Shown here: piece after piece, positions 40,333 to 59,836 of the stretch
How the letters are laid out: the number at the start of each line of letters is the position of its first letter
Numbering within the stretch: position 1 is the stretch's first letter
Source: an uncultured bacterium
Lineage (GTDB): Bacteria; Bacillota_I; Bacilli_A; RFN20; CAG-826
Assembly: GCA_949295325.1 (NCBI GenBank)
Contig: CASFKG010000001.1
Span: 327,665-391,664 of the forward strand
DNA: 64,000 nucleotides
Reading direction: 5' to 3'
Notes under the pieces: generated by a model
Database searches by the model: none
What the model saw: only the letters and a program-made list of their open reading frames with translations
What the model was told of the DNA's origin: nothing
Made by a program: the position numbers and the translations under genes

Positions 40333-41688
40333 TCATTTCGGCAAAGTCTCGGGCAAATCTTCTATTCCGCATTCCCCGTGGAGGTACTTGTAGATACCAT
40401 CATAGAACTCGGGGTTCCTAGTTTTGTCAAAACCGTCGAGATCCCCTAGCGGTACGAATATGACCATGCCCTGGCGGGCTCTGGTTAGCAAGACGCGGTA
40501 GGCATTTACCAAATAACGCTGGCGGGCCTCGCTGTTGCGGTGTTTCCAGGAACTCCCGCTGAAGCTATACGGATCCCATTTACCGTTTTTGGGATTGATC
40601 CGCAAATCGGCATCCCACCCGACTATGGCGTAGTCGAGTTCGAGGCCCTGGACCTTGAATTCGGTCGCGGCGACATCCATGAAGTCGGAGGAACGCAAAT
40701 CGTCTTTGGGCGAAAGAAACCACTGGGAAGGATTCATATCGATGGAAGAGTAAACGCCCTCGGCCTTCAAGCGTTGGGCGGAGCTCGAAATGACGATTCC
40801 CGAGCGCTGGCTTCCTCTTACCTGCCCCCGGATGTAACGTTTGGCCGCCCGGATGTCGCGCGTAATGAAAATGGGAAATTTGTCTTTGATTTGGGTGTAG
40901 ATTTGTCGGGCTTTTCCGCAGTCCTGCGCCAAAACCGCGTCCACGAAGGCGCTTTGCTGCTCGCTTCGGAAGGTCCGCACCGAGACACTAAGGTGCAAAC
41001 CGTCTATTTGATGGCATTTCTGTGAGGATAATACCGATTTCTTGTCGATTCTCGCGTCTTCCTGCTGACCGAATATGCCAGAAGAATAATAGATGTCCCA
41101 ATCGGGAAAATAGTCTATGGCACTCGAGAACCACTCCCCGATGCCGACTTCACCGTCATTGATGTCTTGGCCAAGGCCGACTAGGCAAACTATGGCGGAC
41201 CAGTCCTTTCTTCTATCCATTACGGAAAGGAAGTAGTGTGGTTCGCTTACGTCTATTTGGACGTTCATTTTCTTCTTTGACCAATCAGATAGTTTGGCCT
41301 TGTCCCAGCATCTCTGGGCTTCGTCGAAAATGATGACGTTTTCGTTCGGTGGGACGTCGCTATGGTTGATGCTGTAGCGCCTGAAGGCATAGGCGGCCTG
41401 TATGAAAGTGGCAACGCCGGCTTTGATTTCTTCCTTTGTGTGTTTCCCTTTTCCCTTTTTGACTCTTTCCAACGCGTCGTCGGTCAGGGCTTTCCTCAAT
41501 ACCTCGACCAGCGGGCCGTTCCCGGATAGATAAACGGCCCCGGAAGTGCCGTCGGGTTTGAGGTTGCCCGCGGCGATATCAAGACCCACCAAGGTCTTGC
41601 CGGCTCCAGGCACGCCGGTAATGAAAATTATGGATTTCCTCCCTGGTTTTTGGTTTTTTCGATTATCTCGGCAACTGCCTTTTCGCAT
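40333..41688 (-). CDS. DUF2075-type P-loop ATPase, C-terminal part after a frame change
   Basis: The C-terminal ATPase/helicase-like half of a DUF2075 (schlafen-like AAA) protein: Walker A ITGVPGAGKTLVGLDIA, Walker B NVIIFDEAQRCWD, and late motifs FKVQGLELDYAIVGWD and NAYRVLLTRARQGMVIFVP (superfamily 1 helicase-like). Family members are normally one protein of over 600 residues. Here the N-terminal half is the next upstream frame, which ends at 41628. No Shine-Dalgarno site precedes any start here. The two frames join if the A6 run at 41654-41659 (T on plus strand) is read as seven. Confidence 0.8.
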   Translation of the reverse strand: MRKGSCRDNRKNQKPGRKSIIFITGVPGAGKTLVGLDIAAGNLKPDGTSGAVYLSGNGPLVEVLRKALTDDALERVKKGKGKHTKEEIKAGVATFIQAAYAFRRYSINHSDVPPNENVIIFDEAQRCWDKAKLSDWSKKKMNVQIDVSEPHYFLSVMDRRKDWSAIVCLVGLGQDINDGEVGIGEWFSSAIDYFPDWDIYYSSGIFGQQEDARIDKKSVLSSQKCHQIDGLHLSVSVRTFRSEQQSAFVDAVLAQDCGKARQIYTQIKDKFPIFITRDIRAAKRYIRGQVRGSQRSGIVISSSAQRLKAEGVYSSIDMNPSQWFLSPKDDLRSSDFMDVAATEFKVQGLELDYAIVGWDADLRINPKNGKWDPYSFSGSSWKHRNSEARQRYLVNAYRVLLTRARQGMVIFVPLGDLDGFDKTRNPEFYDGIYKYLHGECGIEDLPETLPK

Positions 41689-42380
41689 TTGTCAATGTTC
41701 TCCTGCCCAGCTTCCGACCTTGCTATTTCATGGACGTTATGGCCCCGGTATGCGGTTAGGGCCGCTTCGATGATATTCGGGGTCGGATGGTATTCGGAAT
41801 TAAACCATTTTTCGAAATCGAGTTTTTCGTTGGTCCCGTAAACCTTTGCTACTTCCTCCACCCTATCCAAAAGGTTTTCGTTGTTTGCATATTGCAGGCG
41901 GACCTGCTTGTCGCTATAGGCATCTATCCTGTTGTTCTTATAGTCCTTGGCTTCGGTGGCTACGAGGATTGGGCAGACATAAAGATCTTTGGATTCCTTG
42001 TGGAAGTTCTTCAAATCAAGTGCGTAATCCTCGGCTTGTTCAGCATCGCGGGCCTCGTAGCTCTTCGCCCCGTTTTTGAATTCGAGCGAAAAGACCATGT
42101 GCTTGATCAGCAGCACGACATCGATCCTTTTCCCCATCCTAACGATGTCGTATTCGAAGATGATGTCGCCAGAACAGCCGGATCTTTTGAGTTTCTCCTG
42201 CAGTTCCCAAATCTGGCTTTGCCAAGCCTTGGACTGTTCGACCGTATCATCGAAGCCAAAGTCGGTTCCGAACCTGGTCAACTGCCCCAGGATATAATCG
42301 GGTTCGTCGGTCAAGAATGCGTCGATGGTGTTGAAATAATAGGCTTTCCCGGACTGCTTCGAATAAATGGAATGTTCCAT
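41628..42380 (-). CDS. DUF2075 protein, N-terminal part (frame-changed)
   Basis: About 250 residues from ATG 42380. It carries the PD-(D/E)XK-like front domain of DUF2075 proteins: YDIVRMGKRIDVVLLIKHMVFSLEFKNG (motif D..E-x-K), YALDLKNFH and PTPNIIEAALTAYRGHNVHEIAR. It ends in EIIEKTKNQGGNP where relatives continue straight into the Walker A region, so it is the front of a broken or frameshifted gene. Leaderless-type promoter with a palindrome over the -35. Often linked to defence or DNA metabolism; the exact role is not known. Confidence 0.8.
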   Translation of the reverse strand: MEHSIYSKQSGKAYYFNTIDAFLTDEPDYILGQLTRFGTDFGFDDTVEQSKAWQSQIWELQEKLKRSGCSGDIIFEYDIVRMGKRIDVVLLIKHMVFSLEFKNGAKSYEARDAEQAEDYALDLKNFHKESKDLYVCPILVATEAKDYKNNRIDAYSDKQVRLQYANNENLLDRVEEVAKVYGTNEKLDFEKWFNSEYHPTPNIIEAALTAYRGHNVHEIARSEAGQENIDKCEKAVAEIIEKTKNQGGNP

Positions 42381-42416
42381 GGGAGTAAACCTATCAGAGC
42401 CATTGATCGAGATCAA
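42381..42416 (-). promoter_or_regulatory. Leaderless-type promoter of the DUF2075 gene
   Basis: TTGATC at 42411-42416, 17-bp spacer, TAGGTT at 42388-42393, seven bases to ATG 42380. Confidence 0.65.
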
Positions 42417-42442: not shown

Positions 42443-42478
42443 AAACAAAAAAGGAAAAGGGCCGGAGCCCCTTTCCTT
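42443..42478 (-). terminator. Terminator of the 437-residue lipoprotein gene
   Basis: Minus strand: AAGGAAAGGGGCTCCGG pairing with CCCTTTTCCTT, then TTTTTGTTTT. Confidence 0.85.
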
Positions 42479-56217: not shown

Positions 56218-57408
56218 ATGTTCCGTCTGTTGAATGTCGCAGCCAAAGGCTACAGGGGGTTAAAACACAAGAGCACCTTATCTTTTCTTACGCTAGCGAG
56301 GGTATCGGAAGAAGATCTCTCGAATCAGGTATTCGAAATAGAGAAAAACCTCCGCGCCTTCAAAAGCCTCGCGGTCGTGGGTCCGAATTCTTCGGGAAAG
56401 AGTACCGTTCTCAACCTAATCGTTGATGCTTTGAGTATTTTGAAGCACGGTCGTTTGCCGTATCGCAAATTCGATTTCGAAAACGATGAAATCGAACTCG
56501 ACATGGATTTTTATCTTGACGGAAACATCTATTTTTATTCAACAAAGCTTGGAAAACCGCTTCTCCAGGAACCCGGCATTTCCCAAGAAGGGCCTCTTTT
56601 CGACGTATTCAAAAGCCAGACCCTCAAGGTAACCCCATACAAGCCATACAAAGGAAACGGGGTCGTCGAACGACGCGAATCTGCCTCAGATGTGACGGAA
56701 AAATACTTGTCAAAATCCATTCCCGACACTTCCTCGATTTCGGAGCTCACCGGTCGAAGCGTCTTCTTCGACTGCTTTACGACGAACATTGCGGAAGACT
56801 TCGGCGAGGTCCTGATAAGAAATACATTCTACACGCTCATAAAATCAGCCGATCCTTCCGCTCTTGCCCCAACCCTCGCCCTCCTCGACGACTCAATAGA
56901 GAAAATAGAGGCAACGGAACCGAATCTCTTCCTTTTCAAAAGAAAAGGGAAAGAGGAAATCAAACTAAACACAGCCAAGCTGGCTAGTCTGCTTTCGATG
57001 GGGACCATGCGAGGCACGGAAATGTTCTTGAGGGCTTTCTTTGCAATCAAAAACGGGTACGTTTTCATCGTAGACGAAATAGAAAATTCCTTTCATAAAG
57101 ACATAGTCAACAACCTCATTCTTCTGTTCAACGACCCGAAAACCAACCCCAAAGGCGCAACGCTCGTCTTTTCGACCCACCTTACGGAGTCGCTGGACGT
57201 AATGAGCCGCACCGATTCGGTTTACATTACCCACCGAGGCGAAGACGGGATCAGGATAACGAATCTCAAGAACGACCACAGGCTTAGGTCAGGCTTATTG
57301 ACTTCAAGGCAATTGGACAGCGGTATCTTCGGGACCGGGATCAATTACGACAGCACGATCGAGGTAAGGAGAGCATTCGCCCGTGGAGCGCAAACTGATC
57401 TTAGCTGA
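56218..57408 (+). CDS. AAA15/OLD-like (RloA/AbiLi-type) ATPase
   Basis: A 396-residue SMC/ABC-like ATPase: Walker A VVGPNSSGKSTVLNLI near residue 55, then an insert, a signature-like region SLLSMGTMRGTEMFLRAF, Walker B GYVFIVDEIENSFHKD and the switch histidine in VFSTHLTESLDV. This layout is typical of COG1106-type ATPases in RloAB, AbiL and similar two-gene defence systems. SD GGAGG, TATCAT about 20 bases upstream. The gene is clearly richer in A/T at third positions than its neighbours, suggesting transfer. The partner gene overlaps by 26 bases. Confidence 0.8.
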   Translation: MFRLLNVAAKGYRGLKHKSTLSFLTLARVSEEDLSNQVFEIEKNLRAFKSLAVVGPNSSGKSTVLNLIVDALSILKHGRLPYRKFDFENDEIELDMDFYLDGNIYFYSTKLGKPLLQEPGISQEGPLFDVFKSQTLKVTPYKPYKGNGVVERRESASDVTEKYLSKSIPDTSSISELTGRSVFFDCFTTNIAEDFGEVLIRNTFYTLIKSADPSALAPTLALLDDSIEKIEATEPNLFLFKRKGKEEIKLNTAKLASLLSMGTMRGTEMFLRAFFAIKNGYVFIVDEIENSFHKDIVNNLILLFNDPKTNPKGATLVFSTHLTESLDVMSRTDSVYITHRGEDGIRITNLKNDHRLRSGLLTSRQLDSGIFGTGINYDSTIEVRRAFARGAQTDLS

Positions 57409-57943
57409 AGGAAAAAACGAGTATGCCCTGCTCGAGCTCTTGCTAAATAGGAACCTGCTTTGCTTCAAAAGAGAGGACCTTTTGTTTGAATCAATCCGCC
57501 ACGAAAGACAGTTGAGCGGGGCGACTCTAAACATGATCCGTCAGTCCATATCGTCCGGCAAACTACGAATCTATCGTGTCGGAGACAAATTTAGCGATGC
57601 TTTGAAAATTCCAAACGACTGTTTCATAAAAGAAGCGCTCATCAAGCCGGAAACGAAAGTTCTAACAACACCGGAATTAGAGATACTTATGCTGATAAAA
57701 GAAGGCAAACTAAAGGATTTTCTAAAGGAAAAATCCAAACTGAAGCCTTCGGAGTTCTATAGGCGAATCCATCCCGATTACAGCAAAAAATCAAAAGCTT
57801 TGGTGGAATATTTCGAAAAAATGTCGAACAAGGAGATCGTCGTTTTATTTAAAAGTTACAAGAGACTAAGAGGAAAGACCCATAAAACGGACGAATTGTC
57901 CCTTTACGACATTCTTTCGGACGAAGCTAAAAAGATAAAATAA
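57383..57943 (+). CDS. Partner of the AAA ATPase, possibly Toprim/RloB-like
   Basis: 186 residues, lysine- and leucine-rich, AT-rich codons. The start MERKLILAEGKNEYALLELLLNR recalls the Toprim opening (E-G-x-x-D/E), and TTPELEILMLIKEG recalls the late RloB block, but the D-x-D of a full Toprim is not clear (VGDKFSD is the nearest). GTG with AAGGAG about 12 bases upstream, overlapping the ATPase gene, so the two are coupled. Probably the effector or nuclease of the pair; this is inference. Confidence 0.55.
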   Translation: MERKLILAEGKNEYALLELLLNRNLLCFKREDLLFESIRHERQLSGATLNMIRQSISSGKLRIYRVGDKFSDALKIPNDCFIKEALIKPETKVLTTPELEILMLIKEGKLKDFLKEKSKLKPSEFYRRIHPDYSKKSKALVEYFEKMSNKEIVVLFKSYKRLRGKTHKTDELSLYDILSDEAKKIK

Positions 57944-58038: not shown

Positions 58039-58480
58039 ATGAACACGGACAAAATCTACGCACAGAACATCGCCAACGAATACGCGCCGAACGTTCCCTC
58101 CTTCGACAAGAAAAAACCGGAACATCGTGGACGAAATACCAACCGCGGGGCTAGACGACCTAGTTTTTATCAAAAAGGAATATCTTTGCCCGTCTCTTTC
58201 CTTCATGAAGGAAAACAAAGACGTCTACAAAGCCGCCTTCCACAACCCGTCCCAGATGGGTGGCGACTCCCGTTACGGTTACCTGAAACGCCATGTCTTA
58301 GAGCCGATACTCAAAAGGTTTGGGGTCGACGAGACGAAATGGAAATACTACATCGCCTACTACGTCGAAGGAATCACGGCAATAGCAAGGACGTGGCTGC
58401 TTTCCGGCTGCGAAGACGAGGTCGAGGACCTGGCTGATTTGATAGAAGGCTGCGTCCTCAAGCCGCAAAGGCACGGAAAG
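58039..58480 (+). pseudogene. Chimeric remnant: start of a small membrane protein gene joined to a TetR C-terminal domain
   Basis: The promoter-proximal part has a strong SD (GAAAGGAG) and encodes MNTDKIYAQNIANEYAPNVP, the opening of a widespread small membrane protein often labelled dihydropteridine reductase. After about 26 residues that similarity stops, and in another frame (from about 58115) a TetR-family C-terminal domain begins: KEYLCPSLSFMKENKDVYKA and YYIAYYVEGITAIARTWLLSG. The TetR DNA-binding domain and the membrane helices are both missing. A deletion that joined two genes out of frame explains this best. The TetR frame runs on into the antisense of the next gene. Confidence 0.7.
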
Positions 58481-58483
58481 GGT

Positions 58484-59836
58484 CTATTTCCTCGAAAGCA
58501 GGCACACCGTTTCCACGTGGAAGGTGCGAGGGAACATGTCGAAGGGCTGGATTTCCTTTATCTCGAAGCCTTTTAGCAGATCGACGAGGTCGCGGGCCAG
58601 GGTACCGGGGTTGCAGGAAACATATATGACGTTCCGGGGCGACAGTGAAAGGACGCTTCCGATGAACTCGGGGGTGGAACCTTTCCTCGGCGGATCCATG
58701 ACCACGAAGCCGATGTCCGCCTTCTCTTTGGCCAGTTCCCCGATGTACTCCGTAGCGTCGCCTTCCACCATTTCGAAATTGTTTATGCCGTTGTCCTTCG
58801 CGGAGTTTGCCGCATCGATGCAGGCGGAATGTTCCACCTCTACGCCGATGACCCGTTTCGCCATGCCGGAAAGCAGTAACCCGATGGTACCGGTACCGGA
58901 ATAAGCGTCCAAAACGGTGTCGTCGGAGCCGATTTCTGCGTGGTTTTTCAAATATCCGAACAGGGATTCCGCCATCGCGACGTTGGTTTGGAAGAAGCTG
59001 GAAAGCGATATCTTGAACTTGAGCCCGAGCAGTTCCTCTTCGACGTAGCCTTTGCCGTAAAGGATCCTTTCGCGGTTTCCGAGTATCACGTTGGTGTGGC
59101 GTGGATTGATGTTTTGGACGACGCTAACGATTTCGGGATGTTTTTTCCTCAGGGCGGCGATCAATTCCTTCTTGCGGGGGAAGTTCTCGGCTCTGGTCAC
59201 GATGCCGAGGAGCACTTCCCTCTTGGCCCGGCTCGTCCTCATTATCAGGTGGCGGATGTCCCCCCTTCCCCTGTCCTCGTCGTAGGGGGATATCGACAGT
59301 TTGTCCAAAAGAGAAGCGAAATCCTCGGCGATCCCATGGGTAATGGGGTCGTCGTTCGGACAATAGGCCGCCGGAACCAGCCTATGGCTATACGGCGCGT
59401 AAAAACCCAGGGCCGGACGGCTTTTGTATAACCCGACCGGCATCTGCACTTTGTTGCGGTAGCCCACGGGGCTATCCATCCCGACGAGGGGCTTGACCGG
59501 GAAATCGATTTTCCCGATCTTGCGGAGCTGGTCTTCGACCATCTTCCGCTTTATTTCGAGTTCGTAGGCATAGTCGGCGTTTTGGAACGAGCATCCCCCA
59601 CAGCGGAGGAATACCGGGCAGTCGGGTTCCACCCGATGCCGGTTTTTCTCCAGTATCTTGTCCACTTCCCCGAAGAGGGTGCCGTTGCGGCTGTATTTGA
59701 CTTCGATGACCGCTTCTTCGCCGGGGAGCAGCCCGTCGACGAAAACGGTTTTGCGTTCCGACTTGAAAACCCCCTTGCCTTCATAGGAGGTATCCACGCA
59801 GGAACCTCGAAGAAGAAAGGGGGCGAAAGACGGCAT
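58484..59836 (-). CDS. RlmD/RlmCD-type 23S rRNA (uracil-C5)-methyltransferase
   Basis: A 450-residue TrmA/RumA-family enzyme. TRAM domain at the N-terminus, a [4Fe-4S]-type cysteine set (CPVFLRCGGCSF), SAM-binding LDAYSGTGTIGLLLS, MDPPRKG, and the catalytic cysteine in VSCNPGTLARDL. It makes m5U in 23S rRNA, probably U747 and/or U1939. It starts two bases before the end of metG (TGATATG), so it is coupled to it. Confidence 0.92.
   Translation of the reverse strand: MPSFAPFLLRGSCVDTSYEGKGVFKSERKTVFVDGLLPGEEAVIEVKYSRNGTLFGEVDKILEKNRHRVEPDCPVFLRCGGCSFQNADYAYELEIKRKMVEDQLRKIGKIDFPVKPLVGMDSPVGYRNKVQMPVGLYKSRPALGFYAPYSHRLVPAAYCPNDDPITHGIAEDFASLLDKLSISPYDEDRGRGDIRHLIMRTSRAKREVLLGIVTRAENFPRKKELIAALRKKHPEIVSVVQNINPRHTNVILGNRERILYGKGYVEEELLGLKFKISLSSFFQTNVAMAESLFGYLKNHAEIGSDDTVLDAYSGTGTIGLLLSGMAKRVIGVEVEHSACIDAANSAKDNGINNFEMVEGDATEYIGELAKEKADIGFVVMDPPRKGSTPEFIGSVLSLSPRNVIYVSCNPGTLARDLVDLLKGFEIKEIQPFDMFPRTFHVETVCLLSRK

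Follow-up and report, generated by a model that had tools for sequence, protein, structure and literature searches.

A gene coding for a nuclease-helicase of defence type is divided between two overlapping frames in the window, i.e. the whole 64,000-nucleotide stretch of DNA analyzed here. The arrangement is best attributed, at about even confidence, to an ordinary recent one-base frameshift mutation in an accessory gene. One gene, specifying an N-terminal PD-(D/E)XK-type nuclease and a C-terminal Schlafen-group-3 helicase, would have had one base deleted from the codons that specify the interdomain linker. Translation would end shortly past the nuclease domain, the helicase half would be made from the ATG at 41688 in small amounts at most, and the intact protein would not be formed. 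The mutation would be real and recent, and splitting presumably abolishes the function of the nuclease-helicase protein. A recent frameshift is favoured because the halves match the family end to end, most relatives are open, the motifs are kept, the gene is accessory and the assembly is not rich in indels. The locus comprises the following elements.

41628..42416, minus strand: N-terminal half, PD-(D/E)XK-type nuclease-like domain, 262 aa from TTG 42416 (ATG 42380 is an alternative start)
40333..41688, minus strand: C-terminal half, Schlafen group 3 type helicase/ATPase, 451 aa from ATG 41688
41628..41688, minus strand: frame overlap of 61 nt, containing the frame change according to crossover profile scores
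41654..41659, minus strand: A6 run, one among several equivalent places for the lost base
41700..41704, minus strand: AGGAG, which may serve the second frame as a weak ribosome site, 11 nt 5' of ATG 41688
42451..42478, minus strand: terminator-like hairpin 3' of the upstream lipoprotein-like gene, at the upstream edge of the inserted gene (compare the intergenic stretch of genome G029)

The two frames differ by one base. When compared with the PADLOC PDC-S41 model (657 positions), the N half corresponds to positions 3-233 (E 9.6e-71) and the C half to positions 229-653 (E 1.2e-167). Since the halves match successive parts of one model, the split is not a chance arrangement of ORFs. No further frame break or stop was found within either half, both ORFs reading through. 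The place of the lost base was analyzed by joining the two frames at each of 20 positions, and scoring the products against a profile of 20 intact relatives. Scores were 785.7 bits at 41688, 802.7 at 41661, 803.7 at both positions inside the A6 run, and 798.8 at 41631, with a maximum of 807.2 at 41640-41643. From 41661 to 41634 they are nearly flat (801.4-807.2 bits), and the loss is therefore equally possible elsewhere in about 41631-41661, where it most probably lies; the A6 run is a candidate site, one of several. The frame-change stretch holds A6, A5 and G3 runs. A6 runs are unremarkable in the window, numbering 39, versus 69 expected from shuffles. The preliminary description had placed the nuclease-like and ATPase halves of one protein in overlapping frames, as is borne out here; the exact joining that it drew at the A6 run was overstated.

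It had also proposed a comparison with relatives, and these are not likewise split. Loci were taken from the 80 best of 466 confirmed relatives, 8 viral loci, and family searches that listed at most 30 matches each. The 180 loci correspond to 167 distinct genes, 165 of which were counted, two being left out as not reaching the linker. Among the loci as sampled, 157 of the 165 linker-spanning genes form a single frame, whereas 8, counting the window gene, are broken. A stable two-gene form was seen in no clade of these 165 distinct genes. Carriers are rare in the genus, as only one (G003) of 36 other genomes has a copy. This is 47% identical, and is a single open frame of 604 aa that has no stop and runs off the contig. 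In the same phylum, strong matches (>200 bits) were found in 7 of 392 genomes; six are in one frame, and the seventh is the window gene. Matches at E up to 1e-40 occur in 40/357, 22/365, 4/351 and 11/364 genomes of the phyla of loci L057, L038, L079 and L019, respectively. Strain variation was sought, but genomes of the genus, phages and plasmids yielded no close relative, and E. coli gave no match to two family genes from Gammaproteobacteria. In the genome of the window, a 633 aa ORF on contig 2 matches PDC-S41 weakly (E 2.3e-6), and is at most a distant relative. Of 147 near-invariant columns, the window gene deviates at 14, a number reached by none of 141 intact members; the count does not date the break, because the equally divergent intact gene L164 deviates at 13.

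The other broken homologues are listed below with the type of lesion, positions after "near" being those of the break.

L057, 3221-5293: Verrucomicrobial gene, A8 run in the same linker as the site of a frame change; the run includes an in-register A AAA AAC
L079, 3067-5263: Candidatus Nomurabacteria gene, in-frame TGA in the same linker, CGA in the close relatives L035 and L059
L085: stop near position 45
L161 (genome G505): stop replacing the Walker A lysine, near 250, otherwise open
G1108: stops near 47 and 107, and frame change in Walker A
G560: frame changes near 254 and 588
G714: break near 362

The first two genes are otherwise intact. The second frame of L057 has no ATG, GTG or TTG upstream of the first helicase strand, and this gene is a better candidate for slippage than the window gene. 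Changes private to L079 are 45 synonymous and 7 non-synonymous (69/14 and 62/19 in the pair of intact relatives), where 3.45 non-synonymous per synonymous are expected at random. Purifying selection over the gene appears normal, which suggests that the stop is recent, tolerated or an error. G1108 and G560 each have several breaks, and resemble ordinary decay or sequence error.

Of the 10 break events other than that of the window, two lie within the linker proper (binomial tail 0.016). The sampled-genome set taken alone has seven events: positions 228-255, an interval fixed after inspection of the data, hold three of them (tail 0.002), positions 213-253 hold two (tail 0.066), and positions 218-248 hold one (tail 0.29). 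Genes with an intact helicase half are preferentially included in the best-80 list, whose three events, two of them in the linker, are thereby skewed to the N half and linker. In the lysine-rich linkers of the family, A runs range from 2 to 8 bases in length, and indel-prone DNA thus suffices to account for part of the clustering. Clustering of breaks at the linker is no more than suggestive, the numbers being small and one of the lists biased.

The split gene is located between a lipoprotein-like and a transporter-like gene, labels that come from reading the translations rather than from a family search. In genome G029, whose ClpB is 85% identical, the lipoprotein-like gene directly adjoins the transporter-like gene, after which comes ClpB, and the split gene is absent from this place. 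Its G+C content is 0.508, versus 0.531-0.599 in nine neighbours. Mobile-element ends were not found around the gene in a repeat scan, which detected only short imperfect matches. Judged by gene order, the split gene is a lone accessory insertion relative to G029. Elsewhere in the window (56218-57940, plus strand) a gene for an AAA_21 (AbiEii-like) ATPase is followed by a second ORF; neither has a convincing match in the same-genus stretches examined, and they are probably another accessory pair of defence type.

The main competing explanation, less probable than mutation and still to be taken seriously, is a consensus or assembly error, the gene of the organism being intact and one base missing from the assembled sequence. 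On the assembled sequence alone, such an error at 41628-41688 looks the same as a real mutation. The change is of one base in a stretch with several short runs, the rest of the gene is intact, the genome assembly consists of 3 contigs and is 95% complete, and a second ORF of the window changes frame likewise near an A6 run (58111-58116); all these data fit an error. The quality of the surrounding sequence points the other way. The window contains 63 coding-signal segments, 46 of which have a homologue in frame in reference stretches from seven same-genus genomes; the 17 segments that lack one include both segments of the split gene. Of the 46, 44 align in a single frame over at least 85% of the homologue, and amount to 46,017 bases of segment; of the other two, one is a weak match (30%) and one belongs to a gene truncated at the edge of the window. 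Alignment rows spanning several frames were considered as broken genes, and were attributed instead to shadow ORFs in overlapping or antisense frames, or to weak matching of a paralogue. Because 44 of the 46 testable segments are unbroken, the assembly is not riddled with indels, and errors of this kind must be rare in it.

The second frame-changed ORF (58039-58573, plus strand) has a start with AAGGAG 7 nt upstream, and its coding signal changes frame near the A6 run. The later part matches TetR_C_8 (PF14278, E 1e-8), and no DNA-binding domain was seen in the ORF, which, from its sequence, may be a recombination remnant.

Mutation or error, and not mutation alone, were foreseen in the preliminary description as decay or misassembly, and are still the two leading explanations. 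A third one, that the halves are separate working proteins, the helicase being translated from ATG 41688 and cooperating with the nuclease, is unlikely. AGGAG is found 11 nt upstream of this ATG, and each half is predicted to fold alone (mean pLDDT 83.2 for the N half and 85.7 for the C half). In the defence systems McrBC and Gabija nuclease and helicase/ATPase are separate proteins, and both systems are among the fold matches of the halves. Against this reading, the 165 genes include no stable two-gene clade, and L057, split at the same place, lacks a usual start codon ahead of the first strand of its helicase. Moreover, as ATG 41688 is situated 61 nt within the first ORF, coupled restart is unlikely. 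The second frame had been described as devoid of a Shine-Dalgarno site. The AGGAG corrects this in part; its spacing is long and it sits inside coding sequence, so that the site looks weak rather than absent, and a weak start is possible. The best start of the first ORF, ATG 42380, is itself preceded only by AGGT at 8 nt.

Ribosomal (-1) or transcriptional slippage at the A run, which would yield some full-length protein together with a nuclease-only product, is quite improbable. The direction of the frame change fits -1, the A8 run of L057 is found in the same linker with a heptamer in register, and L079 combines a linker stop with apparently normal purifying selection. Programmed -1 frameshift sites consist of an in-register X XXY YYZ heptamer. 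The A6 run of the window reads GAA AAA ACC in the first frame, and no slippery heptamer in register was found there. The run is short. Phase variation would call for a repeat tract of varying length among cells or strains, and the tract here is no longer than A6. No stimulatory RNA structure was detected, as folding z-scores are unremarkable both for 161 nt around the site (-0.24) and for 84 nt downstream (-0.39), pseudoknots being outside the model. Nor is the split conserved across the family, as programmed -1 frameshifting would lead one to expect. The two-product slippage proposed in the preliminary description is accordingly not upheld, and slippage and two working proteins are both possible but unsupported; the gene does not look built to yield two products.

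Least probable of all, and improbable in itself, is that the nuclease-helicase linker is a recurrent, tolerated or regulated break point. In this reading, some lineages (those of the window gene, L057 and L079) would make a nuclease-only product, and slippage, readthrough or restart would give them full-length protein in small amounts or not at all; an expensive defence gene would thereby be kept off or on standby. Were the break recurrent and functional, the nuclease-helicase defence protein would have a simple on/off switch. Two other relatives broken at the same linker are rarely expected by pure chance, which counts against the recent-frameshift reading. With a recent frameshift as the preferred reading and an error as the next, the window copy is a broken or mis-sequenced version of a known defence candidate, and is mainly a caution for annotation.

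The C half matches Pfam PF09848 (SLFN-g3_helicase) with 238.7 bits (cutoff 24), an entry that we take to be the same as the DUF2075 of the preliminary description, and its Foldseek matches include human SLFN11. No Pfam match was found for the N half; among 36 aligned family members, NERD was matched in two, HSDR_N in one and ABM in one. Residues E88, D99, E112, K114 and Q127 of the N half are invariant across 36 sequences, and catalytic motifs are retained in both halves of the split gene. The predicted fold of the N half best matches Can2 (Z 8.6, rmsd 4.3, 140 residues), as well as Cdn1, McrC and Hjc nucleases; values of Z near 8 are modest, as the structure tool itself warns, and sequence identity to the fold matches is low (4-21% over the rows listed). 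The acidic, ExK and Q residues that mark PD-(D/E)XK enzymes are found on a matching fold, at the level of sequence and predicted structure. Motif and fold together make it likely that the N half is a PD-(D/E)XK-type nuclease.

The intact protein would act against phages or other foreign DNA, PDC-S41 being a PADLOC candidate only; none of the papers searched mentions PDC-S41 by name. Several Schlafen-linked prokaryotic systems are described, in one report, as able to act against phage (PMC12839542).

Three known systems resemble the split gene. PADLOC PDC-S41 (model PDLC05014, a phage-defence candidate) has the same domains in the same order, and the match covers the whole model, in two frames. 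In contrast to most homologous genes, the window copy does not hold both domains in one open frame. Can2/Cdn1, McrC and Hjc share with the N half the conserved E, D, ExK and Q residues and the fold, whereas sequence identity is low and a Pfam match is lacking. The Schlafen group 3 helicase of Pfam PF09848 corresponds to the C half; the N half is PD-(D/E)XK-like, unlike the Schlafen RNase core that long human Schlafen proteins carry.
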